DNA from: Serinicoccus kebangsaanensis
GTDB lineage: Bacteria; Actinomycetota; Actinomycetes; Actinomycetales; Dermatophilaceae
NCBI RefSeq assembly: GCF_008919445.1
Contig: NZ_VSLG01000005.1
Location: 1 to 64,000, forward strand
DNA length: 64,000 bases
Reading direction: 5' to 3'
This document shows, piece by piece, positions 1-64,000 of this stretch. Positions within the stretch are counted from its first letter, which is position 1; the number at the start of each line of letters is the position of its first letter. The notes below the pieces were generated by a model. It was not told where the DNA came from. It searched no databases and saw only the letters and a program-made list of their open reading frames with translations. Position numbers and translations under genes: made by a program.

Positions 1-22
1 AACCAGGAAGAGAACTGACATG

Positions 23-72
23 CAGGGGGTCAGCTTTCACCTGCCGTCAGGGGGTCAGATTTGGCCTGCCGT
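23..72. mobile_element. Tandem 25-bp repeats, probable IS21-like element end
   Basis: Two adjacent 25-bp units (23-47 and 48-72) match at 22 of 25 positions. Each begins CAGGGGGTCAG and ends CCTGCCGT, and the second is followed by TGACAGC. Short tandem GGGGTCA-type repeats of this kind are typical of IS21/IstAB element termini, which carry repeated transposase binding sites. No transposase lies in the window, so the body of the element would be upstream of position 1. The family assignment rests on the repeat style only. Confidence 0.45.
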
Positions 73-227
73 TGACAGCTCTGGCCCCAGCCTCGGAGAC
101 TCTTGAGTCGACTCGAAGGGACCGGATTGCTACTCAGCAGGTGTCGCCGCTTGGGCCAGGGCCGGCAGGAGTCTGACTGCTGGCATGGCCGTGGCCACAG
201 CGTTGTCACATACGCGCCATGCGCAGC

Positions 228-297
228 GTCGTCGCAGGTCAAGAGGCCGATGGTGAGGTTCCCGGCGCCTCCTCTCTGTGTCCCACGCTGTGCGGCT
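228..297. repeat. Dispersed ~70-bp repeat, copy A
   Basis: This stretch aligns with 6064-6135 in the same orientation. The best-conserved parts are TGGTGAGGTTCCC near the middle and CACGCTGTGCGGCT at the end, with roughly 75-80% identity overall by eye and one single-base gap. It lies between the element end at 72 and the terminator of the GntR gene. Apart from this repeat I see no gene in 73-417. The nature of the repeat is unknown. Confidence 0.5.
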
Positions 298-417
298 CGT
301 CGCCGCTCGGCCCTAGTTTCCGCAGAACGACGCGGATCTGGGGTCTTGTGTTGGTGGACCGGCTGAGAGAGCCTCTTTCGGCCCGTTGCGCGTCCGGCTG
401 GCGTCGTAGGAGCGCGA

Positions 418-437
418 GGAGCGTTCGCAAACGCTCC
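418..437 (-). terminator. Hairpin after GntR gene
   Basis: GGAGCGTT and AACGCTCC form a perfect 8-bp stem with a 4-nt loop, starting six bases beyond the stop codon of the minus-strand GntR gene. There is no clear U tract, which is common for terminators in high-GC actinobacteria. Confidence 0.55.
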
Positions 438-443
438 AGGTGT

Positions 444-1199
444 TTATCGTCCGACGTGGTATCCGTTGGGTCCGAAGGACATGGTGAGCGCGTAGCGGTC
501 GGCGCGCACTGTGGTGCGGCGGCATTCGACCGGCTGGCCTTCGAGGGTGCCGGTGCGTTCGATGAGTAGTGCTGCGGTGGGGGATCGCACGCCGAGTTGC
601 TGCGCTTGTTCGGGGCCGAGGAGAGTCGCGGTGATGCGTTCTCGGCCACCGTCGGGTCGGGACATTCCGTGCCTCTCGAGCTCGGTGTAGAGGGCGGTGC
701 GGGTGAAGTCGCTGCTGACCAGCGGCGCGGCCACGCTTGCCGGCATCCAGACGTCGTCGTGTGCCAGGGGCATACCGTCGGCGAGGCGGACGCGTTCCAG
801 GCCGAAGAGGTCGGTGTCGGTGGCCAGGCCCAGGGCGGTGGCGGCTTGTTCGTTCTTGGTGATGCCGCAGCGCAGCACGGTGCTGGTCTGGGCCAGTCCT
901 TGGGACTCGACCTCGGCGAACATCGAGTAGAGGGTCCCCAGCGGTTGCTCGATGGTGGTCGCCAGCACCTCGCTGCGGCGGCCCCGGCCGGAGCGCACCA
1001 GGCCGGCGGCGCGGATCCGGCGCAGCGCCTCGCGGACGGTATGCCGGGAGACGGCATACTCCTCCCGCAGCTCTCCCTCGGCCGGGAAACCCCGGGTGAA
1101 CTCGCCCGCCTCGAGGCGCCGCAGCAGATCCGCGTGCAGCTGTGCCCAGAGCGGCTGTGCGCTGGTCCGGTCGAGTCTCACCTCATCCAGGGTAGCCAC
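444..1199 (-). CDS. GntR/HutC-family transcriptional regulator
   Basis: This 251-residue protein has an N-terminal winged helix-turn-helix of the GntR type (about residues 10-75, with the recognition-helix text YAVSRHTVREALRRI) and a C-terminal UTRA ligand-binding domain (about residues 90-245). The start is a GTG. HutC-type regulators usually bind a small effector and repress neighbouring catabolic or transport genes. The gene lies 20 bp after a TauE-family exporter on the same strand, so it could be the last gene of the sulfur operon or an independent regulator. The effector cannot be read from the sequence. Confidence 0.85.
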   Translation of the reverse strand: MATLDEVRLDRTSAQPLWAQLHADLLRRLEAGEFTRGFPAEGELREEYAVSRHTVREALRRIRAAGLVRSGRGRRSEVLATTIEQPLGTLYSMFAEVESQGLAQTSTVLRCGITKNEQAATALGLATDTDLFGLERVRLADGMPLAHDDVWMPASVAAPLVSSDFTRTALYTELERHGMSRPDGGRERITATLLGPEQAQQLGVRSPTAALLIERTGTLEGQPVECRRTTVRADRYALTMSFGPNGYHVGR

Positions 1200-1219
1200 G
1201 GGAGGTTAGCGAGGAGAGG

Positions 1220-1981
1220 TCACCGTGCCAGGGCTGGGACGACGACCTCTTGGACGATGATGAACGCCGCCATGACCAGGACGAACCACCCGAACATGGT
1301 GCGCAGCAGATCGGGTCTGATGCGGTCGGCGAGCGGCCCGCCGAGCAGGGCGCCCACCACGGCCGCGGCGGTGACCGCCCCGGCCGTGGTCCAGTCGATG
1401 TGCACCGAGGCGAGGTACCCGCCCAGGCCGGCCGCGGACTTCAGGGCGATGACGACGAGCGAGGTCCCCACGGCCACCGGCATCGGCAGGCCGCCCAGGA
1501 GGGCCAGCGCCGGCACGACGAGGAAGCCGCCGCCCGCGCCGACCAGGCCGGTGACCAGACCGACGACCAGACCTTCCAGGACGACCTGGGGCACAGGGAG
1601 GCGGTCGTGCACCTTGCGCGGGTCAAGGTCGCGGCGTCCGCGCAGCATGGCGAAGGCCGTGGCGAGCATCATGGCCGCGAAGCCGACGAGCAGCCAGTGG
1701 CCCGGCACGTAGGCGGCGAGCCGGCCACCGGCATACGCCCCCGCCATCCCCGCCACGCCGAAGACGAGCCCGGTCCGCCACTGGACCCGCCCGGCCCTGG
1801 CGTGCGAGACCGCACCCACGGCGCTGGTCACGCCGACGACGAGCAGCGAGGTGGCGATCGCCTCCTTCGTCTCCATCCCGGCGACGTAGACGAGCAGTGG
1901 CACCATGAGGATCGAGCCGCCGCCGCCGAGCAGGCCGAGGGTGACCCCGACCAGCGCGGCGAGGAGGACGAGGACGAGCAC
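1220..1981 (-). CDS. TauE/SafE-family membrane exporter
   Basis: This is a 253-residue integral membrane protein with about eight hydrophobic segments and the duplicated glycine-rich signatures LGLLGGGGSILMVPLL and GLVGAGGGFLVVPALALLGG. These are diagnostic of the TauE/SafE (DUF81) family, which exports sulfite, sulfoacetate or related anions. The GTG start lies two bases beyond the stop of the rhodanese gene, so the two are translationally coupled. Together with the rhodanese and the divergent MBL/rhodanese enzyme, the likely job is export of sulfite made during persulfide or thiosulfate oxidation. The transported anion is inferred from context. Confidence 0.85.
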   Translation of the reverse strand: MLVLVLLAALVGVTLGLLGGGGSILMVPLLVYVAGMETKEAIATSLLVVGVTSAVGAVSHARAGRVQWRTGLVFGVAGMAGAYAGGRLAAYVPGHWLLVGFAAMMLATAFAMLRGRRDLDPRKVHDRLPVPQVVLEGLVVGLVTGLVGAGGGFLVVPALALLGGLPMPVAVGTSLVVIALKSAAGLGGYLASVHIDWTTAGAVTAAAVVGALLGGPLADRIRPDLLRTMFGWFVLVMAAFIIVQEVVVPALAR

Positions 1982-2680: not shown

Positions 2681-4033
2681 ATGGACGTCACCGTCATCGA
2701 CACCTCCGCCCTGGGCGACCGGTCCTACCTTGTGCACGACGGCGAGGTGGCCCTGGTCGTGGACCCGCAGCGCGACATCGACCGCGTCACCGCCGCCGCC
2801 GACGAGGCGGGGGTGCGGATCACCCACGTCGCGGAGACGCACATCCACAACGACTACGTCACCGGTGGGCTCGAGCTCGCCCGGGCGACGGGAGCGGCAT
2901 ACCTCGTCAACGCCGCCGACCCGGTGCAGTTCGACCGCACCCCGATCAGCGACGGCGAGAGCGTGGCCGTCGGCGGTCTGCAGGTGCAGGCGGTCGCCAC
3001 GCCGGGTCACACCGAGACCCACCTGTCCTACGTCGTCACGCACGAGGGCGAGCAGGCCGTCTTCTCCGGCGGCAGCCTGCTCTTCGGCTCGGTCGGGCGC
3101 ACCGACCTCGTCGCGGCGGCCAAGACGACCGAGCTCACGCACGCGCAGTATGCCTCCGTGCGGCGGCTCGTGGGGGAGTCCCAGGACGACGCCGCGCTCT
3201 ACCCCACCCATGGCTTCGGGTCGTTCTGCTCCAGCGGGCCGGCGACGGGCGCCGAGAGCTCGACGATCGCCGAGCAGCGGGAGCACAACCACGCCCTGAC
3301 CGACCAGGACGAGGCCCACTTCGTCGAGCAGCTCATCGCCAACCTCACCGCCTACCCGACCTACTACGCCCACATGGGTCCGGCCAACCTCAAGGGCCCG
3401 CAGCCGGTCGACCTGGCCGTCCCCGAGCCGCTGGACGCCGAGGAGCTGACCCGGCGCCTGGAGCAGGGGGAGTGGGTCGTCGACCTGCGCGAGCGCGTGG
3501 CCTTCGCCGATGGCCACCTCTCGGGCGCGGTGAGCTTCGAGTACGGCAACGGGGCCAGCTTCACCACCTTCCTGGGCTGGGTGCTGCCGTGGAACGACCG
3601 CATCACGCTGGCCGGCAGCCGGGAGCAGGTCGAGGCCGCCATCCGCGACCTGTCCCGCATCGGCATCGATTCCCCGGACGCCGCGCTCGGCACCGACCCC
3701 GCGCAGCTCGCCCCGGACGCCGCCACCGCGTCCTACCCCCGCGTGGGCTGGGAGCAGATGCTCCAGGAGCGCGGCGCGGACGAGGCCGTGCTCGACGTGC
3801 GCCGGACCGACGAGTTCGCCGCCTCGCACGTCGAGGGCGCGGTCAACGTGCCGCTGCACGAGCTGCTGACCCGCATGGACGAGGTGCCGACCGGCACCGT
3901 CTGGGTGCACTGCGGCTCGGGCTACCGCGCCGGCGTGGCCGCCAGCCTCATCCAGCGTGCCGGTGGCTCCCCGGTCCACGTGGACGCGGGCTTCGCCAAT
4001 GCAGAGGCGGCCGGAGTCGTGCTCGACTCCTGA
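2681..4033 (+). CDS. MBL-fold hydrolase fused to two rhodanese domains (persulfide dioxygenase-like)
   Basis: The 450-residue protein begins with a metallo-beta-lactamase domain (residues 1-230). Metal ligands are visible at H54, H56, D58 (HIHND), H110, D142 and H177, the ETHE1/Blh arrangement of persulfide dioxygenases. Two rhodanese domains follow. The first (about 250-345) lacks a catalytic cysteine. The second (about 355-450) has it in HCGSGYRA. Enzymes of this layout oxidise glutathione or other persulfides to sulfite. GGAGAGAG precedes the ATG. The divergent rhodanese and TauE exporter fit a chain of sulfane-sulfur transfer, oxidation to sulfite, then sulfite export. The exact thiol carrier in this organism is not shown. 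Confidence 0.88.
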   Translation: MDVTVIDTSALGDRSYLVHDGEVALVVDPQRDIDRVTAAADEAGVRITHVAETHIHNDYVTGGLELARATGAAYLVNAADPVQFDRTPISDGESVAVGGLQVQAVATPGHTETHLSYVVTHEGEQAVFSGGSLLFGSVGRTDLVAAAKTTELTHAQYASVRRLVGESQDDAALYPTHGFGSFCSSGPATGAESSTIAEQREHNHALTDQDEAHFVEQLIANLTAYPTYYAHMGPANLKGPQPVDLAVPEPLDAEELTRRLEQGEWVVDLRERVAFADGHLSGAVSFEYGNGASFTTFLGWVLPWNDRITLAGSREQVEAAIRDLSRIGIDSPDAALGTDPAQLAPDAATASYPRVGWEQMLQERGADEAVLDVRRTDEFAASHVEGAVNVPLHELLTRMDEVPTGTVWVHCGSGYRAGVAASLIQRAGGSPVHVDAGFANAEAAGVVLDS

Positions 4034-10759: not shown

Positions 10760-11626
10760 ATGTCGCGACAATTCTCTTCTTCTGGACCCGTTGGACCCTT
10801 CGAGGGTGCTCATCATGACGGGTCGCCAGCACGGGGCGTGAGCGGCCTGCACCCCACCCTGCTGCGGCTGGACGCTCTGGCCGCCCACCTAACCGCAGAC
10901 GAGCACGTCCAGGCAGTCCTGGGTCTGGGTTCGGCGGGGATCGAGACCCACCGCTTCGACGAGCACTCTGACATCGACTTCTTCGTCGTCGTCGACAACA
11001 CCGCCACGAAGGAGCAGTACCTCCGGGACGTCAGCTGGCTGGTCGGCTTCGGTGGCGAGGTCGCCCACAGCTTCGTCAACGACCCGAACGGCAGGAAGGC
11101 GCTGTTCGCCGACGGGCTGTTCGTGGAGTACGCGATCTTCACCCCGGACCAGCTTGCGGCCGTGCCCATCGCCGGCGCGCGCGTCGTCTGGTCACGCACC
11201 GAGAGCGAGCTCGCGCCGGGCAGCCCGGCCGTCCCGTCCGCCACCGCGATCGACACCGTCGACTTCCATCTCAACGAGGCCCTCACCAACCTCTTCGTCG
11301 GACTTCACCGCGAGAGCAGGGGGGAGCGGCTGACGGCGATGCGCTTCATCCAGGTGTATGCCGTGGACCGGGTGCTGGCGCTGGTGCGGCTCGACCCTGC
11401 TTCGCACCTGGACCACCCTGACCGTTTCGAGGCCACCCGCCGCATCGAGCACGCCCGCCTGCCCACCGACCTACCCCTGCACCGCATGGCCCCGGGCTAC
11501 GCCCACAACGTGGCTGCCGCAGGGGCCGTCCTGGACTGGCTCACGACCCACCACACCACCAACCCCTCCATCACCCGCGCCATCCACCACCTCATCGACG
11601 AGCAGCAGCGACCCAGCCCCTGGTAG
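10760..11626 (+). CDS. Nucleotidyltransferase-domain protein
   Basis: The 288-residue protein has an N-terminal polymerase-beta-like nucleotidyltransferase fold. The signature is GLGSAGIETHRFDEHSDIDF: the G-S pair, then D-x-D metal ligands at about residues 73-75. The C-terminal half is helical and resembles the substrate domains of kanamycin- or streptomycin-type nucleotidyltransferases. A weak GAAAGGA precedes the ATG. It is divergent from the DHDPS-family gene with a 148-bp shared upstream region. The acceptor (an antibiotic, tRNA or protein) cannot be told; there is no minimal-toxin layout and no partner HEPN gene beside it. Confidence 0.75.
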   Translation: MSRQFSSSGPVGPFEGAHHDGSPARGVSGLHPTLLRLDALAAHLTADEHVQAVLGLGSAGIETHRFDEHSDIDFFVVVDNTATKEQYLRDVSWLVGFGGEVAHSFVNDPNGRKALFADGLFVEYAIFTPDQLAAVPIAGARVVWSRTESELAPGSPAVPSATAIDTVDFHLNEALTNLFVGLHRESRGERLTAMRFIQVYAVDRVLALVRLDPASHLDHPDRFEATRRIEHARLPTDLPLHRMAPGYAHNVAAAGAVLDWLTTHHTTNPSITRAIHHLIDEQQRPSPW

Positions 11627-16258: not shown

Positions 16259-17475
16259 CGGTGGGGAGCCGGCGACGCGTGAGCGACCGATCCGGTGGTG
16301 CCGACGGTCGGGGCCAGGCTCAGCGCCGTCGAGCCGGGGTGGAGCAGCCGGTAGGCAGCCTCGACCACCCAGTAGTTGCCGTAGGGCATGACGTCCTCCA
16401 GGGGGAAGCGGGAGAAGCCGGCACCCGCCTTGTCGGCCGGGAGCCGCCCCCAGCTGCTGTGCAGCAGCACGCCCCCGGGGGAGAGGTGGTCGGTGAACAG
16501 CCGGCCGGCGATCCGGGCCCCCGCCGCCTCGGCCCACCCGACGGATGCGGGGTCGAGCCGGGCGAGGCGGAGCAGGGCGTTGGCGGCGATGGCCGCGCTG
16601 CAGGAGTCCCGAGGCACGGCCGGAGCGGCAGGGTCCTGGAAGTCGTAGAAGGGCACGTCGTCCTCCGGGAGGTGCTCGACGTACCACCGGCAGGTGCGGC
16701 GGGCCACGTCGAGGAAGCGGTCCTTCCCGGTGGCCTCGTAGGCGTTCGTGTAGTTGTGCATCGCCCAGGCCTGACCGCGCGCCCAGGTGGTCTCGTCGTC
16801 ATACCCCTGCAGGGAGTAGCGACGTGCGACGGCCCCGGTGCGCTGGTCGAACTCGATGGCCTGGTGGGCGGAGCCGTCCTCGCGGATGATCCCGTGGTCG
16901 AGCAGTTGGGCGTTGTGCGCCACGGCGACGTCGCGCAGCTCGGGAGCCTGGGGCGCGGCCCAGTAGAAGGGCAGCAGGTTCAGTCCGGTGTCGATCACCG
17001 CGCGGTTCACGCCGAGGACCTGGAAGAAGATCCGCAGCTCGGGGTCGAGGTTCTCGGCATACCGTGCCGTGGCTCGCAGCGCCGCGCCGGCGAGCTCCTC
17101 GTCACCGGTCAGCCTGGCCCCCAGGCAGGAGGCGTAGAAGAGGTCGCTGCCGGCGGCGGAGAACCGCGGCGGCGCGGCCGCGAGGGCACTCGCGACCGTG
17201 TCGGCGAGTCTGGTGGCGGCCGCGCGGACCCGCTCGTCACCGAGGTGCTCGGAGACCAGCCACAACCGGCCGGTGAGGAAGCCGACCCATTGGAAGGTCG
17301 CCCACCGGTGGGGGTCGTAGGGGGCGACCGGTAGGTACCCGCCGGTGCTGTAGCTGAAGCGCGGGACGTGTCCGGGGGGTGCGCCCTCGACCAGCGCCAG
17401 CACCGGATCCAGCCCGGCGCGCACGTCCAGCAGGGCCTGCTCGGCAGACGCGCGCAGCTGCTGACCCGTGGTCAT
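16255..17475 (-). CDS. GH88-family unsaturated uronyl hydrolase-like protein
   Basis: The 406-residue (alpha/alpha)6-barrel protein has the family 88 landmarks. D111 in GSDLFYASCLG and D162 in VIDTGLNLLPFYWA occupy the two catalytic Asp positions. ETTWARGQAWAMHNY (W231, R233) matches the substrate-binding DSSWARGQAWA block, and DSCSAAIAANALLRLA and PYGNYWVVEA close the barrel. Known members hydrate the C4=C5 vinyl ether of unsaturated glucuronyl oligosaccharides released by polysaccharide lyases. There is no signal peptide, so it acts in the cytoplasm. It sits between two CoA transferases, with ATGA overlaps on both sides, an unusual partnership for GH88. Confidence 0.82.
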   Translation of the reverse strand: MTTGQQLRASAEQALLDVRAGLDPVLALVEGAPPGHVPRFSYSTGGYLPVAPYDPHRWATFQWVGFLTGRLWLVSEHLGDERVRAAATRLADTVASALAAAPPRFSAAGSDLFYASCLGARLTGDEELAGAALRATARYAENLDPELRIFFQVLGVNRAVIDTGLNLLPFYWAAPQAPELRDVAVAHNAQLLDHGIIREDGSAHQAIEFDQRTGAVARRYSLQGYDDETTWARGQAWAMHNYTNAYEATGKDRFLDVARRTCRWYVEHLPEDDVPFYDFQDPAAPAVPRDSCSAAIAANALLRLARLDPASVGWAEAAGARIAGRLFTDHLSPGGVLLHSSWGRLPADKAGAGFSRFPLEDVMPYGNYWVVEAAYRLLHPGSTALSLAPTVGTTGSVAHASPAPHR

Positions 17476-18689
17476 CCGCGCTCGCCGTCCTCGGCGACGA
17501 CCCCGGCGGCGAGCAAGGCGTCGACCTCATCCACGGACAGACCGTGCTCCTGCAGGACCGACCGGGTGTCGGCGCCCAGGCGTGGGGGAGCGGTGTGCAC
17601 CGGAGGCCGGGCACCGTCGAAGCGCATCGGGGCGGCCAGGGTGCGGAGCCGCCCGACGGTGGGGTGGTCGACCTCGGCCACGATCTCGTTGTGGACGACC
17701 TGAGGGTCGGTCATCGCCGAGGAGAGGGTGTTGACGGGCGCGCAGGGCACCCCGGCCTCGTGCAGGACGGTGAGCCAGGCGTCGGCGTCGCGCTCGGCGA
17801 ACTGTGCGGCGAGGGTGGGCACGAGCTCGTCCCGGCGGGCCACACGGTCCCGGTTCGAGGCATACCGGACGTCCTCGAGCAGGTCGGACCGCCCCAGGGC
17901 GGCGCAGAGCAGCCGCCAGAATTTGTCGTTGATGACCGACAGGTAGAGGTACCTCCCGTCCTGGCACCGGAACGCCTGGTAGGGGCAGAACTGCGGGTGG
18001 CCGCTGCCGAGGCGCGGCTGGTCCTCACCGTTGATGAGGTATTCCTGTGCCCGCGGGCCGAGGGCGAAGATCTCGGCATCGAGGAGGTTGAGGTCCACCT
18101 GGGCACCACCGCCGTGCCGGGCTCGGCCCAGCAACCCCGCGAGGACGGCTTGCGCCGCGAGCATCCCCGCCGCGAAGTCGGGCACGCTCACCCCCTGGCG
18201 GGCCGGCGGCCCGTCCTCCTCCCCGGTGATGGACATCGCGCCGGACAGGGCCTGCACGATGGGGTCGTTGCCGGCGAGACCGGCATAGGGTCCGTCGGCG
18301 CCGAAGGCCGAGATCGAGACGTAGACCAGCGCGGGGGCGAGGTGCTCGAGCGAGGCCCGGTCGACGCCCAGGGCCGCTGCCTTCCCCGGCCGGAGGTTCT
18401 CCACGACGGCGTCGGCCCCGGCGACCAGGCGGCCGAAGACGTCCTGCCCCTCAGGGCGGGTCAGGTCCAGCACCACGCTGCGCTTGTTGCGGTTGAGGGC
18501 GAGGAAGACCGCGCTCTCGCCCTCGGCATACACACTGCCCGCGTGCCGGGCCATGTCGCCGGCGCCGGGCCGCTCGATCTTGATCACCTCGGCCCCGAGG
18601 TCGGCCAGCAGCATCGTGCACCAGGGGCCGGCGGCGAGATGACTCAGGTCCAGGACCGTCACGCCGGCGAGGGGGAGGTGTGCGGACAT
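17472..18689 (-). CDS. Class III CoA transferase (CaiB/BaiF), operon copy 1
   Basis: This 405-residue, full-length family III CoA transferase contains VTVLDLSHLAAGPWC, LADLGAEVIKIERPGAGD, NRNKRSVVLDL and a catalytic Asp in SVPDFAAGMLAA near residue 168, with a complete C-terminal domain (GVPCAPVNTLSSAMTDPQV). It is the first gene of the minus-strand operon CoA transferase, GH88, CoA transferase, ACAD. I chose ATG 18689 because GGAG precedes it and the family N-terminus begins directly after. It is divergent from an IclR gene 87 bp away, the likely regulator. The carboxylate substrate is not predicted. Confidence 0.88.
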   Translation of the reverse strand: MSAHLPLAGVTVLDLSHLAAGPWCTMLLADLGAEVIKIERPGAGDMARHAGSVYAEGESAVFLALNRNKRSVVLDLTRPEGQDVFGRLVAGADAVVENLRPGKAAALGVDRASLEHLAPALVYVSISAFGADGPYAGLAGNDPIVQALSGAMSITGEEDGPPARQGVSVPDFAAGMLAAQAVLAGLLGRARHGGGAQVDLNLLDAEIFALGPRAQEYLINGEDQPRLGSGHPQFCPYQAFRCQDGRYLYLSVINDKFWRLLCAALGRSDLLEDVRYASNRDRVARRDELVPTLAAQFAERDADAWLTVLHEAGVPCAPVNTLSSAMTDPQVVHNEIVAEVDHPTVGRLRTLAAPMRFDGARPPVHTAPPRLGADTRSVLQEHGLSVDEVDALLAAGVVAEDGERG

Positions 18690-42192: not shown

Positions 42193-42237
42193 GGCGGGAG
42201 GGGTGGCTGGTGCGTGCGCGGGTATGCCGTCGGCCGG

Positions 42238-42251: not shown

Positions 42252-43571
42252 ATGCGCACCCGACAGCCGGCGCGCGGGGGACTGCCGCCCGGCCCGCGGA
42301 CGCCCGCGGCCCTCCAGACGATCCAGGCCTTCACCGACCGTCGGAGCACCTTCGAGCGCCACCGTGCCCGCTACGGCGACCCCTTCACGGTGCGGATGCT
42401 GCCCGGCCCGCAGCACCTGGTCCTCTTCAGCGACCCGGACGCGATCAAGGAGATCTTCGCCGGGGACCCGGTCGAGCTGAGCGGGGCGCAGGGCAACGAG
42501 ATGCTGCGGGCGGCGATGGGGGACCGCTCGGTCATGCTCAACGACGGCGAGGCCCACCGGGCCATCCGGCGCTACCTCATGCCGGCCTTCTCGCCGGCCG
42601 CGGTGCGGGCATACCGCCCCGTCGTCGAGCGCGCCGCCGCGGCCGAGATCGACACCTGGACCCCGGGCCTCCCGGTCGTGGCGCTGGAGCGGATGAGCCG
42701 GGTCACGCTCGAGGTGATGATGCAGGTGGTGCTCGGCGCGAGCGACCCCGAGCGGTTGGCCGCGCTGCGTCCCCGCGTGCTGCGTCTGGTCGAGGTCGAC
42801 CCCGTGGTGGTCGGGGGCTGGCTCTACCCCCGGCTGCGCGCCCTGCCGCCCTGGCGCGGCCACGCCCGCAACCTGCGGGCGATCGACGACCTCATCCACG
42901 CCGAGGTGACGGACCGCAGACGCGGCAGCACCGCCGGTTCGTCGGACCTGCTCACCCAGCTGCTCGCCGTCGGCAGCGAGGCCGACGACCGGGAGCCCCT
43001 CACCGCCGACGAGATCCGCGACCAGGTCGTGACCCTGCTGCTCGCCGGCTACGAGACCACGGCCTCCACCCTGGCGTGGACGCTGCACGAGCTCGGCCGC
43101 GACGAGCAGGTGCGCGCCCACGCCCGCCGCGCCGCGCACGCCGGTGACGAGGAGCACCTGGAGGCCTGCGTGAAGGAGGCGACGCGGCTGCACCCGATCA
43201 TCGACTACGTCGCCCGCACCCTGCGCAGCGACCAGCGGATCGGCGGCGTCGACCTGCCGGCCGGGGCGACCGCAGCCCCGGCGATCCTGCTCGCGCACCA
43301 CGACCCCGACGCCTTCCCGGAGCCGGACAGGTTCCGGCCGGAGCGGTTCCTCGGCGAGGGGCCGGAGCCGCACACGTTCATCCCGTTCGGCGGGGGAGTG
43401 CGCCGGTGCATCGGCGCCGCGTTCGCGCTCATGGAGGGCGTGGTCGTGCTGCGCGAGGTGCTCACCCGCGTCGATGTCGTCGCCGACTCCCCGGCCCCCA
43501 CCCGGCTGCGCAACATCACCAACGTCCCCGGCGACGGTGCCCCGCTGCGGGTCTGCCCGCCCCCCGGCTGA
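42252..43571 (+). CDS. Cytochrome P450
   Basis: The 439-residue bacterial class P450 has an I-helix oxygen-activation motif AGYETT (265-270), a K-helix ExxR at E309/R312 (EATRLHP) and the heme-binding loop FIPFGGGVRRCIG with the thiolate Cys386. It needs electrons from ferredoxin partners, and none is encoded nearby. The substrate is unknown. The frame is open upstream into the inverted repeat, but ATG 42252 after a -10 element at leaderless distance is the better start. It lies alone between a helicase and a HIT-like protein. Confidence 0.92.
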   Translation: MRTRQPARGGLPPGPRTPAALQTIQAFTDRRSTFERHRARYGDPFTVRMLPGPQHLVLFSDPDAIKEIFAGDPVELSGAQGNEMLRAAMGDRSVMLNDGEAHRAIRRYLMPAFSPAAVRAYRPVVERAAAAEIDTWTPGLPVVALERMSRVTLEVMMQVVLGASDPERLAALRPRVLRLVEVDPVVVGGWLYPRLRALPPWRGHARNLRAIDDLIHAEVTDRRRGSTAGSSDLLTQLLAVGSEADDREPLTADEIRDQVVTLLLAGYETTASTLAWTLHELGRDEQVRAHARRAAHAGDEEHLEACVKEATRLHPIIDYVARTLRSDQRIGGVDLPAGATAAPAILLAHHDPDAFPEPDRFRPERFLGEGPEPHTFIPFGGGVRRCIGAAFALMEGVVVLREVLTRVDVVADSPAPTRLRNITNVPGDGAPLRVCPPPG

Positions 43572-43617: not shown

Positions 43618-43623
43618 CGGGGT

Positions 43624-44244
43624 ATGCCGGAGACGCCGCAGGAGTGGTATGCACGGGTCAGCGAGGCGATCGAGCGCGACGGGTACCGCGAGAGCGACCT
43701 GCAGCAGTGGAGCTCCTGGCCCTGGACCGGTGCGCTCGCGCCGAAACCGCTCGATCCGCCCGCAGACGTCGAGCCGCCGCGCAGGGGAGCCGGGGGCGTC
43801 GACTGCTTCGTCTGCGCGAACGCGGCCTCCCTCGACCCCAGCTCCGTCGTGTGGCACGACGACCTCTTCCTGCTCGGCCTGCCGCACGAGCGGCGCGGGC
43901 TGCCGTTCGCGCTGTTCCTCATGCCGCGGCGGCACGCCGAGCTGGGCAACCTGACGACCGAGGAGGCGACCCGCCAGGGCGAGCTGCTCACGGCCGTGGA
44001 CGTCGCCGCACGGCAGGTGCTCGCCGTCCCGCGGATCCAGGTGGCGATGTGGGGTGACGGGACCGAGCACCTGCACTGGTGGCTGTATGCCCGGCCCACC
44101 GGGATGCTCCAGCTGCGGGGCACCTTCCTGTCGCACTGGGACGACCTGCTGCCTCCGGTGCCGCCCGCGCAGTTCCGCGCCGACCAGGTGCTCGTGACCC
44201 AGGAGCTGGCGCGCCGGGTCGGCGGCGAAGCCGTGCCGGACTGA
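43624..44244 (+). CDS. HIT-like protein with CxxC motif
   Basis: The 206-residue soluble protein has a CFVC pair near residue 60. Following it are VVWHDDLFLLGLPHERRGLPFALFLMPRRHAELGNLT and DGTEHLHWWLYARPTGM. The fold order and the HLHWW motif resemble histidine-triad (HIT) or GalT-like nucleotide hydrolases, with a shortened histidine triad (HxHxx). HIT proteins hydrolyse or transfer nucleotidyl groups. The incomplete triad makes the activity uncertain; it may be a binding protein. Confidence 0.65.
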   Translation: MPETPQEWYARVSEAIERDGYRESDLQQWSSWPWTGALAPKPLDPPADVEPPRRGAGGVDCFVCANAASLDPSSVVWHDDLFLLGLPHERRGLPFALFLMPRRHAELGNLTTEEATRQGELLTAVDVAARQVLAVPRIQVAMWGDGTEHLHWWLYARPTGMLQLRGTFLSHWDDLLPPVPPAQFRADQVLVTQELARRVGGEAVPD

Positions 44245-45071: not shown

Positions 45072-45138
45072 CCGCCCACGGGCATACCCCTCCGTGCCGG
45101 CGGGCGCCGGCGACCCCGCTCCTGGCACCATCGTGGCC

Positions 45139-45729
45139 ATGAGCCGCGCGCTGATCATCGTCGACGTCCAGCACGACTTCTGCGAGGGCGGGTCCCTCCC
45201 CGTGACGGGTGGGATCGCCGTCGCCACCGGGATCGGTGAGTTCGTGACCCGGCACCGGGACCGGTATGCCGCCGTCGTCGCCACGGCCGACTGGCACGTC
45301 GACCCCGGTGACCACTGGGCCACCGACGGCGAGCCCGACTTCCGGCACTCCTGGCCGGTGCACTGCGAGGTCGGCACCCAGGGTGCCGAATTCCGCCCCG
45401 AGCTGGCCCCGGCGCTGGAGCTCGTGGACGCGGTCTTCCGCAAGGGCGAGCACGAGGCCGCCTACTCCGGCTTCGAGGGCAGCGCCGACGTCGACGGTCG
45501 GTCGGTGCCGCTCGCGGACTGGCTGCGGGAGCGCGGGGTCACCGCCGTCGACGTCTGCGGCCTCGCGACCGACTACTGCGTGCGCGCCACCGCCCTGGAC
45601 GCCCGGCGCGAGGGCCTGGAGACGACCCTGCTCAGGGACCTGTGCGCCGGCGTCGCGCCGGAGAGCACCGAGGCGGCGCTGGAGGAGATGCGAGACGCCG
45701 GGGTCGCTCAGCTCCAGTCGTCGAGGTAG
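45139..45729 (+). CDS. pncA: Nicotinamidase (isochorismatase family)
   Basis: The 196-residue enzyme has the cysteine-hydrolase triad D9 (IVDVQHDF), K102 (FRKGEH) and C147 (LATDYCVRAT). The metal-binding region is DWHVDPGDHW (Asp51, His53, His59). It converts nicotinamide to nicotinate, the first step of NAD salvage. The next enzyme, nicotinate phosphoribosyltransferase, is encoded convergently and the two coding regions share 22 bp at their 3' ends. No clear ribosome site is seen. Confidence 0.92.
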   Translation: MSRALIIVDVQHDFCEGGSLPVTGGIAVATGIGEFVTRHRDRYAAVVATADWHVDPGDHWATDGEPDFRHSWPVHCEVGTQGAEFRPELAPALELVDAVFRKGEHEAAYSGFEGSADVDGRSVPLADWLRERGVTAVDVCGLATDYCVRATALDARREGLETTLLRDLCAGVAPESTEAALEEMRDAGVAQLQSSR

Positions 45730-47009
45730 GTCGTCGGCAGGGCCGGCTCGCCGTGGGACAGGCGCAGCGCCGGGAGCGGCAGCTCGGCCCGGGCCTGCTC
45801 GTGGTGCGCCCGGGCGGTCTGCACGTCGGTCGGGGCGACCACCTCGCCCGAGGCGACGAGCGGGACCAATAGGCTCCGGTCGTCGCCGTCGTCGTCCGGG
45901 TGCTCGTTGATGCCCACGATCTCCGCGCTCGCCACGCCGAGGGCGGACCGGCGACGCAGCGCATACTTGCGCCCGCCGACGCTGGTCTTGTCCTTGCTCG
46001 CCTTGGCGACGCCCTCCAGCTGACCCGCGCCGTTCTCCCGGCTGACGAGCTTGTAGACCATCCCCGCCGCGGGGTGACCCGACCCGGTGACGACCTGGGT
46101 GCCGACACCGTAGGCATCGACCGGGGCCGCCTGGAGCGCGGCGATGGCGTACTCGTCCAGGTCCGAGGTCACCACGATCCGGGTGTCCGTCGCGCCGAGC
46201 CGGTCCAGCTGGGCGCGGACCTCGAACGCCTGGCTGACCAGGTCACCGGAGTCCAGGCGCACGCCTCCCAGCTCGGCGCCGGCGAGCTCGACCGCCAGCT
46301 CCACCGCCCCGGTGACGTCGTAGGTGTCGACCAGCAGCGTGGTGGACAGCCCGAGGCTGGCGAGCTGGGTCGCGAACGCCGAGCGCTCGTCGTCGTGCAG
46401 CAGGGTGTAGGAGTGGGCGGCGGTGCCCATGGTCGGGAGCCCGTGGCGGCGACCCGCCTCCAGGTTGGAGGTCGAGGCGAAGCCGGCGAGGTATGCCGCC
46501 CGCGCCGCCCCGACGGCGGCCGCCTCGTGGGTGCGGCGCGATCCCATCTCGATGCACGGGCGGCCGTGCGCGACCGCGGTCATCCGGGACGCGGCCGAGG
46601 CCACGGCCGAGTCGTGGTTGAGGATCGACAGGAAGAGCGTCTCCAGGATCACCCCCTCGGCGAAGGAGGACTCGACCACGAGCAGCGGCGAGCCGGGGAA
46701 GTAGATCTCGCCCTCGGCATACCCCCAGATGTCGCCGGTGAAGCGGTAGTCGGCCAGCCAGTCCAGGGTGCGCCCGTCCACGACCTGCCGGTCGGCGAGG
46801 AAGGTGAGCTCCTCCTCCCCGAAGCGGAAGTCGCGCAGCGCCTCGAGGGCCCGCCCGGTGCCGGCCACGACGCCGTAGCGCCGCCCGTCGGGCAGCCGGC
46901 GGGCGAACGCCTCGAAGACGCAGCGGCGGTCCGCGTGACCGCTGGCCAGAGCGGCCTGGATCATCGTCAGCTCGTAGTGGTCGGTCAGCAGGGCGGTGCT
47001 CGGGCTCAC
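45708..47009 (-). CDS. pncB: Nicotinate phosphoribosyltransferase
   Basis: The 433-residue enzyme of NAD salvage joins nicotinate and PRPP to give nicotinate mononucleotide. Recognisable parts are [16 protein letters not shown] at the N-terminus, [27 protein letters not shown], the catalytic-histidine block [24 protein letters not shown] and [12 protein letters not shown]. It lies opposite pncA, overlapping it by 22 bp, and its promoter faces clpS with 22 bp between the start codons. Confidence 0.94.
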
Positions 47010-47953: not shown

Positions 47954-47975
47954 GGCATACCCTCCGCTGCCGGAA

Positions 47976-51044: not shown

Positions 51045-51704
51045 CTAGGGCGGTATCGCCCCAGCCTCGCGCAGGACGGCGGTGGTGCGGGGACCGACCC
51101 TCAGGCGCAGCGCGAGCGCGAGGTCGTCGGCCGTGTCCACGTCGCGACGCAGCCGGGGCAGGTCCAGGTCGAGGACGGTGGCGTCCACGCCGTGCCTGGC
51201 CGCCGAGCCTGCTCCGAACCGCGGCTCGGGTATGCCCGCGGTCGAGGTGAGCAGCACCGTCCCGCTGCCGTCGGCGTCCGGCACGACGGCACGCTCGTGC
51301 GCCCCGGCCCGCGCCAGCGCACGACCCAGGTCCTCGGGACGCAGGCACGGCAGGTCGCCCAGCAGCACCGCCCAGCCCGAGGCGGGCGGCCCTTGCTCGG
51401 CGGCGTCCTCGAGGCCCGCGCGGATGGCGGCGTTCAGCCCCGATCCGGGGTCGGGCACCGCGCGGGCGCCCAGCTGCCCGGCCCACGCGGCAGCCCCCGG
51501 GTCACTCGTCACGACGGTGACCGACGCCGGCGGAAGGGCCGCGCAGACCGCCGCCACGGTGTCCATGCCGATCGCCCGGGCCAGGTCGGCGCGGTGGACA
51601 CCGTGCGGCGCGACCAGACGCGACTTGGCCCGGTCCGCGTCCTGGATCGGCACCACCAGACGCCATCGCGGTCCGGCGTCCTGGGCTTGCGGGTTCGGCG
51701 GCAC
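51045..51704 (-). CDS. cofC: 2-phospho-L-lactate / phosphoenolpyruvate guanylyltransferase
   Basis: The 219-residue nucleotidyltransferase of coenzyme F420 synthesis contains WRLVVPIQDADRAKSRLVAP, DTVAAVCAALPPASVTVVTSD, DPGSGLNAAIRAGL and VLLGDLPCLRPEDLGRAL (metal Asp). Its presence implies F420 production in this organism; in actinobacteria the natural substrate is reported to be phosphoenolpyruvate (FbiD). It is divergent from the acyltransferase gene with 37 bp between starts. Confidence 0.9.
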   Translation of the reverse strand: MPPNPQAQDAGPRWRLVVPIQDADRAKSRLVAPHGVHRADLARAIGMDTVAAVCAALPPASVTVVTSDPGAAAWAGQLGARAVPDPGSGLNAAIRAGLEDAAEQGPPASGWAVLLGDLPCLRPEDLGRALARAGAHERAVVPDADGSGTVLLTSTAGIPEPRFGAGSAARHGVDATVLDLDLPRLRRDVDTADDLALALRLRVGPRTTAVLREAGAIPP

Positions 51705-52485: not shown

Positions 52486-53483
52486 CGAGGGCGGCGATCT
52501 TCGGCGCCGGCAGCTGGGGCACCGCCTTCGCCCAGATCCTGGCGGACGCCGGGGCCGAGCGCGTGGTGCTCTGGGCGCGGCGCCCGGAGGTCGCCGAGGG
52601 CATCCGGGTCCAGCACCGCAACCCCGACTACCTCCCCGAGATCGAGCTGCCCCCGGTGGTCACCGCCACCACCGACCCCGCGGAGGCGGCGGCCGACGCC
52701 GAGATCACCGTCCTGGCCGTGCCGTCCCAGACCCTGCGCGACAACCTCACCGACTGGGGCTCCGAGCTGCCTCCGGACACGCCCGTGGTGTCCCTCATGA
52801 AGGGCATCGAGCTCGGCACCGGCAGGCGGATGAGCCAGGTGATCGAGGACAGCGGAGTCGACGTCGCGCGCATCGTCGTCGTCACCGGACCGAACCTCAG
52901 CCGGGAGATCGCGGCCCGGCAGCCCGCCGCCAGCGTGGTCGCCGGGGTCGACCACGGTGCTGCGGACCGCGTCGCCGCGGCGGCGATGACGGCATACTTC
53001 CGCCCCTACACCCAGACCGACGTGGTGGGCGCGGAGATCGGGGGAGCGGTGAAGAACGTCATCGCCCTCGCGGTCGGGATGGCCGAGGGGCTGGGCTACG
53101 GCGACAACACCAAGTCCAGCCTGATCACCCGCGGGCTCGCCGAGACCGCCCGGCTCGGGCAGGAGCTGGGTGCCGACCCGGCGACCCTCATGGGTCTCGC
53201 GGGTGTCGGTGACCTCATCGCCACCTGCATGTCCCCGCTGTCGCGCAACCACCGGGTGGGTGTGGCGCTGGGTCAGGGCCGCAGCGTCGAGGAGGTGCTG
53301 GCCGTGCCGCACCAGACGGCCGAGGGGGTCAAGTCGTGCCGCAGCGTGGTCGAGCTCGGGGCGCGGCACGGGGTCGACCTGCCGATCTGCCAAGGGGTCA
53401 GCGCGGTCGTCGAGGGGGCGGCCACACCGGCGGAGCTGACCGGCGCGCTGATGAGCCGTGCGCGCAAGCACGAACGGCACTGA
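52482..53483 (+). CDS. gpsA: Glycerol-3-phosphate dehydrogenase [NAD(P)+]
   Basis: The 333-residue enzyme reduces dihydroxyacetone phosphate to sn-glycerol-3-phosphate. It has the dinucleotide motif IFGAGSWGTAFA, SLMKGIELGTGRRMSQV, VVTGPNLSREIA, the catalytic-lysine region GGAVKNVIALAVGMAEGLGYGDNTKSSLITRG and GLAGVGDLIATCMSPLSRNHRVG. It is coupled to the acyltransferase by an ATGA overlap. Confidence 0.96.
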   Translation: MTRAAIFGAGSWGTAFAQILADAGAERVVLWARRPEVAEGIRVQHRNPDYLPEIELPPVVTATTDPAEAAADAEITVLAVPSQTLRDNLTDWGSELPPDTPVVSLMKGIELGTGRRMSQVIEDSGVDVARIVVVTGPNLSREIAARQPAASVVAGVDHGAADRVAAAAMTAYFRPYTQTDVVGAEIGGAVKNVIALAVGMAEGLGYGDNTKSSLITRGLAETARLGQELGADPATLMGLAGVGDLIATCMSPLSRNHRVGVALGQGRSVEEVLAVPHQTAEGVKSCRSVVELGARHGVDLPICQGVSAVVEGAATPAELTGALMSRARKHERH

Positions 53484-53519: not shown

Positions 53520-54668
<1,149 letters not shown>

Positions 54669-55172: not shown

Positions 55173-55384
55173 GTGGTGGTCCGGGTGATCCCGGGCACCT
55201 CCAGGACGTGCGCGATGACGCCGCGCCCCAGGTCCGCCACGCTGGGTGCCTCGACGCAGGCGATGACGTCGTAGGGGCCGGCGACGTCCTCGGCGCTGAC
55301 GACCCCCGGCAGCGCCCGGATCGCCCTGGTCACCCGGGCGGAGACGCCGACCTCGGTCTGGACGAGCATGTATGCCTTGACCAC
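55151..55384 (-). CDS. Lrp/AsnC ligand-binding-domain protein (no DNA-binding domain)
   Basis: The 77-residue protein, VKAYMLVQTEVGVSARVTRAIRAL then VSAEDVAGPYDVIACVEA and a closing ITRTTTCTVVEL, is a stand-alone RAM/AsnC effector domain of the Lrp family, without the helix-turn-helix. Such proteins form ring-like dimers or octamers and bind amino acids; they may partner full-length Lrp regulators. It is divergent from thiL (50 bp). Confidence 0.88.
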   Translation of the reverse strand: MVKAYMLVQTEVGVSARVTRAIRALPGVVSAEDVAGPYDVIACVEAPSVADLGRGVIAHVLEVPGITRTTTCTVVEL

Positions 55385-60830: not shown

Positions 60831-61406
60831 ATGCCGCGGATCATCGCCGGCCGCGCGGGCGGACGCACCCTGCACTCTCCTCGCGGGGCCGACACCCGCC
60901 CCACCACCGACCGGGTGCGGGAGGCGTTGTTCTCCCGCGTGGAGTCGTTGCTCGACCTCGAGGGGTGCTCCGTGCTGGACCTGTATGCCGGGTCCGGCGC
61001 GCTCGGGCTGGAGGCGGTGTCCAGGGGTGCGGCGCGGGCGCTCGCCGTGGAGCGGCACCGCGCGACCGCACGGCTGATCGAGCGCAACGCGGCCCAGCTA
61101 GGCCTGGAAGGGGTCGAGGTGGTGGCGGCGTCGGTCGCCTCGGCGCTCGCCGCCGGGCCGGGGCAGCACACCTACCAGCTCGTGCTGCTCGACCCGCCCT
61201 ACCCGCTCCCCGAGGCCGAGCTGGCGCAGGTGCTCGAGGCCCTGACCACGCATGGGTGGCTGGACCCCGACGCCCTGGTGGTCGTCGAGCGCGGTGCGCG
61301 CTCGCCCCGGCCGGCCTGGCCACCGGCCCTGACCCACCTGGACACCCGTCGCTACGGCGAGACCGCGCTGCACCTCGCCGAGCCCGCAGTAGGCTCGCAG
61401 CCATGA
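60831..61406 (+). CDS. rsmD: 16S rRNA (guanine(966)-N2)-methyltransferase
   Basis: The 191-residue SAM-dependent methyltransferase has RIIAGRAGGRTLHSPRG, TTDRVREALFSRVES, the SAM site VLDLYAGSGALGLEAVSRGA and the catalytic VLLDPPYPL (DPPY). It methylates G966 of 16S rRNA. It lies four bases after recG and overlaps coaD (ATGA), the typical actinobacterial cluster. Confidence 0.95.
   Translation: MPRIIAGRAGGRTLHSPRGADTRPTTDRVREALFSRVESLLDLEGCSVLDLYAGSGALGLEAVSRGAARALAVERHRATARLIERNAAQLGLEGVEVVAASVASALAAGPGQHTYQLVLLDPPYPLPEAELAQVLEALTTHGWLDPDALVVVERGARSPRPAWPPALTHLDTRRYGETALHLAEPAVGSQP
61390..61395 (+). promoter_or_regulatory. TAGGCT -10 element within rsmD, upstream of coaD
   Basis: The hexamer ends 7 nt before the coaD ATG, so coaD may have a leaderless internal promoter in addition to read-through from rsmD. 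Confidence 0.35.
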
Positions 61407-61885: not shown

Positions 61886-62002
61886 GCGGGACCGCCCGGC
61901 TCCGGTAGTCTGGTGCGTCGGTTTGTGTCCCTCTCCGTGCTCGCCGTGGACGAGGACCCGAACCCGATCAGCAGGTCAGACCAAACGTGAGGGACTTTCG
62001 AC

Positions 62003-62599
62003 ATGGCTGCCCAGCAGACGGAGCGCGACTGGGTGTTCGACACCCGGGAGCTGGTCCGCCGGCCCGGGACCATGCGAGAGGTGTCGCGCGAGGTGACCAC
62101 GACGGAGCCGATGGGCACCGACGTCATCGCGATCCCGGCCGGTCACCCGGTGCAGGTGGGCTTGCGGATGGAGTCGGTGGTCGAGGGCATCCTGGCGACG
62201 GGTTCGGCCCAGGCCGCGGCGACGGGGGAGTGCGTGCGCTGCCTGGACGAGGTCCTCGAGGATGTCGAGGTCACCTTCCAGGAGCTGTATGCCTATCCCG
62301 ACCGCGCGGCGCACCACCAGCAGGTGGGGAGCCGGTCGGGCGCCGAGAAGGACACGAGCGACGAGGACGAGCAGCGCACGCTCGACGGAGACCTGATGGA
62401 CCTCGAAGAGGTCGTCCGGGACGCCGTGGTGACCGCGCTGCCCTTCCAACCGGTGTGCCGGGACGACTGTCCGGGCCTGTGCTCCGAGTGCGGGGCACGC
62501 CTGGCGGACGACCCGGAGCACCAGCACGACGTGATCGACCCCCGGTGGTCGGCGCTGGCCGCGATGGCCACGCCGACCGACGACGACGAGAGGACCTGA
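62003..62599 (+). CDS. DUF177/YceD-family protein
   Basis: The 198-residue protein has ECVRCLDEVLEDVEVTFQELY and CRDDCPGLCSECGARLADDP, the cysteine clusters of the DUF177 (YceD) family. In bacteria and plastids, members take part in 23S rRNA maturation, and the gene is nearly always beside rpmF, as here (1-bp gap). The 117-bp leader after coaD contains TAGTCT (61905-61910), a possible -10. Confidence 0.9.
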   Translation: MAAQQTERDWVFDTRELVRRPGTMREVSREVTTTEPMGTDVIAIPAGHPVQVGLRMESVVEGILATGSAQAAATGECVRCLDEVLEDVEVTFQELYAYPDRAAHHQQVGSRSGAEKDTSDEDEQRTLDGDLMDLEEVVRDAVVTALPFQPVCRDDCPGLCSECGARLADDPEHQHDVIDPRWSALAAMATPTDDDERT

Positions 62600-62600
62600 C

Positions 62601-62795
62601 GTGGCCGTTCCCAAGCGGAAGATGTCCCGTTCCAACACCCGGCACCGCCGCTCCCAGTGGAAGGCCGCGCCGATCGCGCTGACCACCTGCCCGCAGTGCC
62701 AGGCCGTGGCCACGCCGCACCAGGCGTGCCCGAGCTGCGGCACCTACGGTGGCCGTCACTACGCCGCCGCCGAGCGCACCGAGCACCAGGGCTGA
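62601..62795 (+). CDS. rpmF: 50S ribosomal protein L32
   Basis: The 64-residue protein, [20 protein letters not shown] then [25 protein letters not shown], has the four zinc cysteines of L32. The GTG start is one base after the DUF177 stop. It is followed by rnc 16 bp downstream. Confidence 0.96.
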
Positions 62796-62811
62796 TCCCG
62801 GGGCCCGCGGC

Positions 62812-63564
62812 GTGCGTCCCGTCTCCGAGTTCAACGACTACCTGCTCGAGGTGGTCGGGGAGTCGTGCGACGAGGCGCTGCTGCTGCGTGCCCTGACGCA
62901 TCGCTCGTACTCCTACGAGCACGACGGCCAGCCGCACAACGAGCGGCTGGAGTTCCTCGGTGACTCCGTGCTGGGGGTCGTGGTCACCGACACGCTCTAC
63001 CGCACCCATCCCGACCTGACCGAGGGGCAGCTGGCCAAGCTGCGCGCCGCGGTGGTCAACTCGCGCGCCCTGGCGGAGGTGGGCAGGGTGGTCGACCTGG
63101 GCTCCTTCGTGCTGCTCGGCAAGGGAGAGGAAGCCACGGGGGGCCGCGACAAGGACTCGATCCTCGCGGACACGACGGAGGCGGTCATCGGGTGCCTCTA
63201 CCTCTCGGCGGGGCTGCCCGCGGCCGATGCCTTCGTGCACCACCTGCTGGACCCACTGCTGCGCCGCAGTGCCGACCTGGGTGCTGCCCTGGACTGGAAG
63301 ACCAGCCTGCAGGAGGTGGCCTCCGCGGCCGAGCTGGGACAGCCGCAGTACCTCGTGGACGCCGAGGGGCCGGACCACAGCAAGACCTTCACCGCGCGCG
63401 CGGTCGTGGCGGAGGAGGTCGTGGGCACCGGCGTGGGCAGGTCCAAGAAGCTGGCCGAGCAGCAGGCCGCCGAGCAGGGCTGGCAGCTGCTGACCGAGCG
63501 AGCGGCGCAGGTCGTGGCGACCGAGCCCACGGCCGGCACCTCGGCCCGCCCCTCCACCGGCTGA
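62812..63564 (+). CDS. rnc: Ribonuclease III
   Basis: The 250-residue double-strand-specific RNase has the signature [17 protein letters not shown] (metal Glu and Asp). The second acidic cluster is [22 protein letters not shown], and the C-terminal dsRBD is [22 protein letters not shown] and [21 protein letters not shown]. It processes rRNA precursors. I chose GTG 62812, after the rpmF stop; the family fold starts a few residues later. Confidence 0.95.
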
Positions 63565-63571
63565 CCTCCTC

Positions 63572-64000
63572 GTGCCGGAGCTTCCCGAGGTCGAGGTCGT
63601 GCGACGGGGGCTGGCGACCCACGTGGTCGGCCGCCGCATCTCCCACGCCGTCCTCACGGGTGCGCGGGTGGCGCGCAGGCACGCGGCCGGACCCGCCGAC
63701 CTGGCTGCGAGGGTGGAGGACGCGCTGGTGCTCGACGCCGACCGCCGGGGGAAGTATCTCTGGCTCGTGCTGCAGCCACCTGGCGACGACCCGCAGGCCC
63801 TGGTCGTGCACCTCGGCATGAGCGGGCAGCTGCTGGTCTCGGGGGCGGGAGCCGCACCGCAGAAGCACCTGCACGCCACCGTGGACTTCGACGACGCCGG
63901 CCCGCAGCTGCGCTTCGTCGACCAGCGCACCTTCGGCGGTCTGGCCCTGGCCCCCCTCCACCCCGACCCGAGCGCCGGCGCGCCCGGGCCGGGCGAGCAC
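63572..64000 (+). CDS. mutM: Formamidopyrimidine-DNA glycosylase, 5' part (runs off window)
   Basis: The first 143 codons encode PELPEVEVVRRGL (catalytic Pro and Glu after Met removal), GRRISHAVLTGARVARRH, RRGKYLWLVL, VVHLGMSGQLLV and LRFVDQRTFGGL, all standard for Fpg/MutM. The C-terminal helix-two-turn-helix and zinc finger lie beyond the window. The GTG start is seven bases after the rnc stop. It excises 8-oxoguanine. Confidence 0.93.
   Translation, partial: MPELPEVEVVRRGLATHVVGRRISHAVLTGARVARRHAAGPADLAARVEDALVLDADRRGKYLWLVLQPPGDDPQALVVHLGMSGQLLVSGAGAAPQKHLHATVDFDDAGPQLRFVDQRTFGGLALAPLHPDPSAGAPGPGEH

Follow-up and report, generated by a model that had tools for sequence, protein, structure and literature searches.

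The window analysed here, meaning the whole 64,000-nt stretch of Serinicoccus kebangsaanensis, carries the hexamer GTATGC or its complement GCATAC 51 times on its two strands, and this word is the subject of the present study. Markov models predict 7.3, 10.2 and 19.5 copies at orders 1, 2 and 3 and 45.7 at order 4, where the signal is swallowed because the internal 5-mers of the word are themselves driven by it. The base after the hexamer is C in 43 of the 51 copies, and the base before it is G in 34 and C in one. The word is thus better given as GTATGCC, with a preference for G on each side (Table 1). A first-pass annotation of the window had estimated by eye about 50 copies of GTATGC and about nine of GTACGC. 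Both estimates agree with our counts (GTACGC/GCGTAC occurs 9 times), and each of its ten example positions has the hexamer within 2 bp; the site near 55906 reads GTATGCG, without the C at the seventh base.

The excess extends to the whole S. kebangsaanensis genome (G000; 3.50 Mb, 37 contigs). With the reversed word as control, GTATGC was counted 3077 times against 473, and GTATGCC 2643 times against 124. GTATGCC is therefore a short, non-palindromic word present in thousands of copies at about 1 per kb. In a 403-kb genome sample, made of the window and 20 stretches, the top over-represented 8-mer was GGCATACC/GGTATGCC, with 212 copies against 8.8 expected at order 2. The extended consensus in this genome is GGTATGCC[G/C].

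Ordinary codon or amino-acid usage, Tyr-Ala pairs in particular, might make such a word common, and 128 of the 251 coding copies in the sample indeed lie in the frame xxG-TAT-GCC. The data refute this. A synonymous codon shuffle within genes leaves 28.1 copies where 232 coding copies are found, and GTATGCC is the top 7-mer of the sample in this test; in the congener G007 the shuffle gave 30.9 against 291. According to our home-made gene finder, which relies on third-position G+C and is approximate, the 304 sample copies comprise 251 coding, 47 intergenic and 6 ambiguous ones, and the 123 coding copies outside the Tyr-Ala frame are spread over the five others (xxG-GCA-TAC 51, GGC-ATA-C 33, the remaining three 13 each). 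GTATGCC is thus not tied to one reading frame: it occurs in all six, and in intergenic DNA. Moreover, word-poor relatives use TAC in 32 of 35 xxG-Tyr-GCC contexts. The shuffle and the spread over frames rule out a codon-pair explanation, for which we see practically no chance.

Codon choice instead gives way to the word. In the genome sample, Tyr is encoded by TAT in 127 of 133 xxG-Tyr-GCC contexts but in 120 of 1575 other cases. Ile is ATA in 30 of 72 GGC-Ile-C contexts and in 24 of 2950 others, and Ala is GCA in 48 of 106 xxG-Ala-TAC contexts compared with 625 of 12936 others. The corresponding fractions are 129/150, 38/76 and 59/152 in G007, and 3/35, 2/45 and 0/86 in pooled word-poor samples (G031, G023 and Janibacter loci). 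GTATGCC overrides codon choice and creates otherwise rare ATA codons. The forced rare codons and the frame-independent pressure at the DNA level described in the first-pass annotation are both borne out by these data.

That annotation had also proposed that GTATGC replaces GTACGC, either because a methylated C of GTACGC turns into T or because GTACGC is avoided as a restriction site. In favour of such a mutational conversion, GTACGCC is scarce in the sample (16 copies against 54.8 at order 2 and 21.1 at order 3). In addition, a comparison of window sites with 11 loci of the outgroup (Janibacter among others) gave 222 pairs. Two of these were identical and 17 had one mismatch, and the one-mismatch state was GTACGCC in 9 of the 17 and GTAGGCC in 8. 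Within Ornithinimicrobium, Serinicoccus and allied loci, however, the picture is different. Alignment of the window with 12 such loci gave 501 site pairs, not independent of one another, of which 178 were identical and 95 had one mismatch, and the commonest one-mismatch state was GTAGGCC (41), ahead of GTACGCC (20). C at the fourth base was common among pairs with several mismatches (for example CTACGCC 17 and CTACGAC 16 of 501). These mixed orthologous states indicate that GTACGCC is one source among several. For the GGC-ATA-C frame conversion is already excluded, because GGC-GTA-C (0 of 112 in this genome, 3 of 114 in G007, 5 of 170 in word-poor relatives) is too scarce to supply the 30 GGC-ATA-C sites found here and the 38 in G007 by C-to-T change. 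The 9 copies of GTACGC in the window compare with 21.5, 28.4, 10.8 and 8.4 expected at orders 1 to 4, and their scarcity follows from a general depletion of GTAC (120 against 243.5 at order 2 on both strands of the window). Moreover, sister genomes enrich GTACGGCG, a word that contains GTAC, and the spacing of GTATGCC is not random. Conversion or avoidance is hence rejected as the main cause and appears very improbable.

GTATGCC sites lie more evenly than random placement would give. Gaps shorter than 100 bp number 11 against 24.5 in simulations for this genome and 15 against 36.3 for G007. The deficit concerns pairs on the same strand: those at 10–400 bp are 14 against 48.4 expected (G007: 25 against 72.4), whereas opposite-strand pairs are 56 against 50.5 (G007: 80 against 76.5). 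In each genome 150 7-mers of similar abundance, drawn from pools of 330 and 227, served as controls, and none was as low on the same strand. A mixed set of other GTATGCCG loci showed a weaker exclusion (39 against 60.9, four bins summed). Neighbouring sites alternate in orientation, sharing a strand in 115 of 301 cases here, 117 of 360 in G007 and 101 of 264 in the mixed set. As exclusion acts on the same strand and not on the opposite one, a site seems to work in a single orientation, and a single site on each strand of a fragment seems to be enough.

Replication strand was examined in G007 only, a single contig, over 20 stretches along its chromosome. GTATGCC is divided 183 to 197 between the strands and its correlation with GC skew is −0.05, so that no replication-strand or chromosome-wide orientation bias is seen in these stretches. 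This lack of bias disfavours the replication-linked, chromosome-organising word that had been suggested for GTATGC; FtsK-orienting polar sequences (KOPS) and other replication-linked words were rejected because a strong replichore strand bias is lacking in G007. Alternatively, GTATGCC might be bound or methylated by a protein of chromosome structure, replication or DNA modification whose specificity changes between lineages; this would fit the genome-wide abundance and the lineage-specific words described below. HIP1 of cyanobacteria, a palindrome abundant across its clade, linked to a Dam-type methylase and of debated role, is a precedent. Unlike HIP1, GTATGCC is asymmetric, is spaced in a strand-specific way and shows no replication-strand bias, and such exclusion is not expected from a symmetric binder or methyltransferase. 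We hence regard a HIP1-like role as unlikely.

Words were mapped over the GTDB family, represented by 186 genomes including G000. Candidates came from codon-shuffle nulls on samples and were then confirmed by whole-genome counts; genomes with at least 200 copies per Mb were called rich, a threshold of our own applied with rounded genome sizes. By this measure 107 of the 186 are rich in GTATGCC (G075 at the threshold), including 30 of the 31 genomes of the window's genus. The exception, G023, is the only genome rich in GTAGCGGC (1070 copies, 324 per Mb; the next has about 75). Nine genomes are rich in GTACGGCG (G059, G060, G068, G069, G071, G140, G144, G145 and G168), and G146 falls just below the threshold with 191 per Mb. 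For CGTAGASC, which combines two words and has a high background, only G065 reaches it (1924 copies, 534 per Mb; next about 190). CGAAGGGG is abundant (428–975 per Mb) in every genome of g52 (16) and of g61 (3), and stays below 100 in the next genome. Altogether, 137 genomes pass for one word, 30 of them for a word other than GTATGCC, and none passes for two. Mixed genomes do occur, with GTACGGCG at 241 and GTATGCC at 172 per Mb in G168, and 145 and 122 in G061. In samples of 40–80 kb each from G031, G076, G151 and G205 no clear word was found, and a weak one could escape at this size.

Judged by genus label, words also switch within genera. G140 carries 3117 copies of GTACGGCG and 40 of GTATGCC, whereas its congener G141 carries 193 and 3866; G023 differs in the same way from its 30 congeners, and G065 from four. 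GTA is common to four of the five family words. The flanks of GTATGCC vary as well: in the G155 sample, CGTATGCC accounts for 56 of 86 copies and GTATGCCG for 84 of 86, and in G190 all 91 copies are GTATGCCG. Among the matches listed, the nearest named relatives of the window are Serinicoccus, with 84–86% Ddl identity; records very near the window were possibly left out of that comparison.

Two of the other words have local arrangements of their own. In G140 (L125, L176-L183, L216) GTACGGCG is often part of a 12-bp palindrome, CGCCGTACGGCG, which places both orientations at one spot; 19 divergent GTACGGCG pairs less than 15 bp apart are of this kind. In Janibacter loci (L044-L056), CGAAGGGG occurs 56 times in 32 kb between genes and 61 times in 106 kb inside them. 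Its copies also pair up at short distance in inverted orientation, an arrangement that neisserial uptake sequences show in terminators. Same-strand neighbours number 47 of 126 for GTACGGCG in G140 and 42 of 110 and 25 of 72 for CGAAGGGG, an alternation largely due to palindromes and close inverted pairs.

Outside the family, 22 genomes of the same order were counted, and none reaches 200 GTATGCC per Mb. G054 comes closest with 425 copies (157 per Mb), but its reversed control is more frequent still (463). The single word GTATGCCG was also counted in 394 genomes sampled across the class; the 386 genomes outside the family show at most about 52 per Mb, against 464 in this genome. A different word appears in family f19. 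In its genome G055 the shuffle test picks CGGATGCC followed by K, C, G (51 coding copies against 9.2) and GGATGCCT (25 against 1.8), and GGATGCC alternates strands there, with 38 of 100 neighbours on the same strand (L230-L233). Three more f19 genomes, sampled at 20 kb each (L242-L244), contain 18, 13 and 16 copies of CGGATGCC, the second-ranked 8-mer of the test. CGGATGCC and GTATGCC have ATGCC in common; the f19 sample is small. No clear word was found in 40–80 kb each of G036, G046, G037 and G038, from four other families, samples in which a weak word could escape.

Same-strand exclusion would fit any directional reader, and a Chi-like recombination hotspot, read by RecBCD or an AdnAB-type enzyme with variant words following changes in the enzyme, has to be considered. 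Chi is likewise short, abundant, orientation-dependent and specific to species or lineage, and RecC (PF04257) was found in this genome and 28 of its 30 congeners among the matches listed, the other two being G009 and G020 (74–75% complete). Over the family, however, RecC (88 of 184 genomes) does not track GTATGCC, and RecBCD-Chi is rejected as a general explanation on this ground. Of 20 RecC-negative genomes listed (from 96), 12 are GTATGCC-rich, for example G033, G034 and G155 (98–99% complete), whereas the RecC-positive G076, G077, G150-G153 and G205-G207 reach the threshold for none of the five words. Moreover, Chi of E. coli is strand-biased, unlike GTATGCC in G007, and the words differ between congeners (G140 and G141; G023 and 30 others). 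A Chi-like role is possible, but we hold it to be improbable.

The genome also carries competence genes. comEA adjoins comEC (L214, 10422-11813 and 8080-10698, minus strand). ComEA scores below the curated cut-off of TIGR01259 and just above that of the domain model TIGR00426, and ComEC_Rec2 (TIGR00361) slightly below its own. Of 58 relatives, 55 have ComEC (PF03772), among them 34 of the 36 that belong to the family, and TadE (PF07811) is present in 181 of 186 family genomes. Passages of a published account (PMC6370729) describe Micrococcus luteus, also an actinobacterium, as having comEA and comEC and transforming via Flp/Tad pili.

Published accounts of the DNA uptake sequence (DUS) and the uptake signal sequence (USS) describe, in the portions available, similar density, even spacing, absence of orientation bias and dialects (PMC1939737, PMC7811141, PMC3630211, PMC2397512). 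As GTATGCC matches these sequences in density, even spacing, absence of orientation bias, intrusion into codons and dialects, we infer that it is probably an uptake-signal-like word in an actinobacterial family capable of natural transformation. The proposal of the first-pass annotation that the word is under selection, with an uptake signal as one example, is supported. A receptor on the uptake apparatus would prefer DNA bearing the word; it would probably sit on a Tad/Flp-type pilus that feeds ComEA and ComEC. Repeated uptake and recombination of such DNA could then spread GTATGCC to about 1 per kb in spite of codon choice, and changes in receptor specificity could give rise to GTACGGCG, GTAGCGGC, CGTAGASC and CGAAGGGG in relatives, in the manner of DUS dialects in Neisseriaceae.

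Comparison with the known systems shows likenesses and differences. GTATGCC resembles DUS in being short, non-palindromic, on both strands and in thousands of copies at about 1 per kb, apparently with several dialects in one family; the inner core shared by DUS dialects is CTG, according to passages of PMC3630211, where four of our five words share GTA. Like the USS of Pasteurellaceae, which has a 9-bp core and a spacing of about 1,000 bp (PMC7811141, in part), GTATGCC is evenly spaced at that density and lies in coding sequence, without orientation bias, as described for USS in portions of PMC1939737. It differs from DUS in being unrelated in sequence and phylum, in not being denser between genes, in forming few close inverted pairs, and in the strand-specific exclusion seen here. 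It also differs from USS, whose extended form is AT-rich beyond the core (PMC12616744, in part), in having one favoured base on each side, and the family has five words where USS has two types.

Several observations weigh against an uptake-signal reading. PilM (PF11104), a marker of type IVa pili, gave no match in 179 of the 186 genomes, this one included, and matched 7, of which 6 were above the cut-off. As PilM is mostly missing, a type IV pilus minor-pilin receptor as used for DUS and USS probably does not apply (minor pilins themselves were not searched) and a different receptor would be needed; no receptor for GTATGCC was found. ComEC and TadE also occur in genomes in which no word was found, and hence the machinery does not predict the word. 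GTATGCC is denser in genes than between them (0.79 against 0.56 per kb, by the crude gene finder), unlike DUS and USS. Putatively foreign DNA is only weakly depleted: in this genome, genes with third-position G+C (GC3) below 0.86 carry 0.63 per kb against 0.78 at GC3 of at least 0.95, and G007 shows no GC3 trend. One-step variants give mixed results: GTATGTC (29 against 8.1) and GTATACC (12 against 4.6) exceed the order-2 expectation but scarcely that of order 3 (25.4 and 8.3), and other variants fall short.

The remaining words add further difficulties, since even spacing was found for GTATGCC only. Gaps below 100 bp are in excess for GTACGGCG in G140 (23 against 8.9, mostly inverted) and for CGAAGGGG (23 against 9.3 in Janibacter loci, mostly inverted, and 11 against 6.8), and show no evenness for GTAGCGGC (4 against 2.6) or CGTAGASC (3 against 5.8). 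The latter two also lack strand alternation (36 of 61 and 50 of 95 neighbours on the same strand), and CGAAGGGG does not contain GTA. Words here switch inside genera, unlike DUS and USS, whose dialects are said to track genome phylogeny in portions of PMC12616744. Finally, the titles and abstract openings listed from the open-licence literature contained no data on uptake or transformation in this family.

With these points weighed, GTATGCC is best read as an uptake-signal-like word with dialects in a phylum for which the titles and abstract openings listed from the open-licence PMC literature showed none; nothing relevant on the word itself came up there either. The need for short uptake sequences was called unique to Neisseria species and Pasteurellaceae in passages of Frye 2013 (PMC3630211). 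If the reading is correct, an actinobacterial dialect system would represent an independent origin of uptake sequences, and its natural switches, some between congeners, would offer material in which to find the receptor. Molecular drive and selection as origins of such words would become testable, and natural transformability, hence a genetic handle, would be predicted for Serinicoccus, Ornithinimicrobium, Janibacter and relatives. In addition, strand-autonomous spacing, of which we found no description in the portions of the literature compared, would constrain models of uptake. More tentatively, it is conceivable, though we give it less than even chances, that these words form an order-wide actinobacterial system, with GTATGCC, GTACGGCG, GTAGCGGC, CGTAGASC and CGAAGGGG as dialects of one family and CGGATGCC of another. 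Fast-switching dialects might then act as barriers to gene exchange, and the two strands would be read independently through a Tad-type rather than a type IVa pilus, each strand carrying its own tag every kilobase or two.

Table 1. Sites of GTATGCC in the window (+, word on the strand shown; −, on its complement; "quoted" marks examples given in the first-pass annotation)
Position	Strand	Remark
769..775	−	
1039..1045	+	
1053..1059	−	
1730..1736	−	
2896..2902	−	
3148..3154	+	quoted
11356..11362	+	sole site between 3155 and 17055
17056..17062	−	
17859..17865	−	
18525..18531	−	
23328..23334	+	quoted
23626..23632	−	quoted
24785..24791	+	
26113..26119	−	
30049..30055	−	
30789..30795	+	
30825..30831	+	
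32550..32556	+	
33708..33714	+	
33780..33786	−	quoted
34689..34695	−	quoted
35086..35092	+	
35157..35163	−	
38904..38910	+	
38932..38938	−	quoted
39958..39964	−	
40962..40968	+	
41418..41424	+	
42222..42228	+	
42608..42614	−	quoted
43622..43628	+	
44085..44091	+	
45081..45087	−	
45264..45270	+	
46491..46497	+	GTAGGCC or GTAGGCG in 4 of 7 aligned relatives
46716..46722	−	same in 7 of 8 aligned Ornithinimicrobium/Serinicoccus loci
47954..47960	−	
51230..51236	+	
52991..52997	−	gpsA-like gene; quoted
53672..53678	+	ddl-like gene
55370..55376	+	
60983..60989	+	gene with Cons_hypoth95 (RsmD-type) domain; quoted
62287..62293	+	

Two of the 51 window hexamers belong to GGTATGCTGCATACC, an inverted repeat at 26414-26428, some 30 bp upstream of the gene (26458-27129) for a GntR/FCD regulator. 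They lack the C of the genome-wide word, and the repeat is probably an operator of the adjoining regulator. Comparison of the tRNA region with phage records gave short, tRNA-sized matches only. Between 3155 and 17055, about 14 kb with genes that include a proline racemase, a dihydrodipicolinate synthase (DHDPS)-family protein and an acyl-CoA dehydrogenase, several genes have lower third-position G+C. Together with the single GTATGCC site there, this suggests that the segment may be a recently acquired catabolic island.

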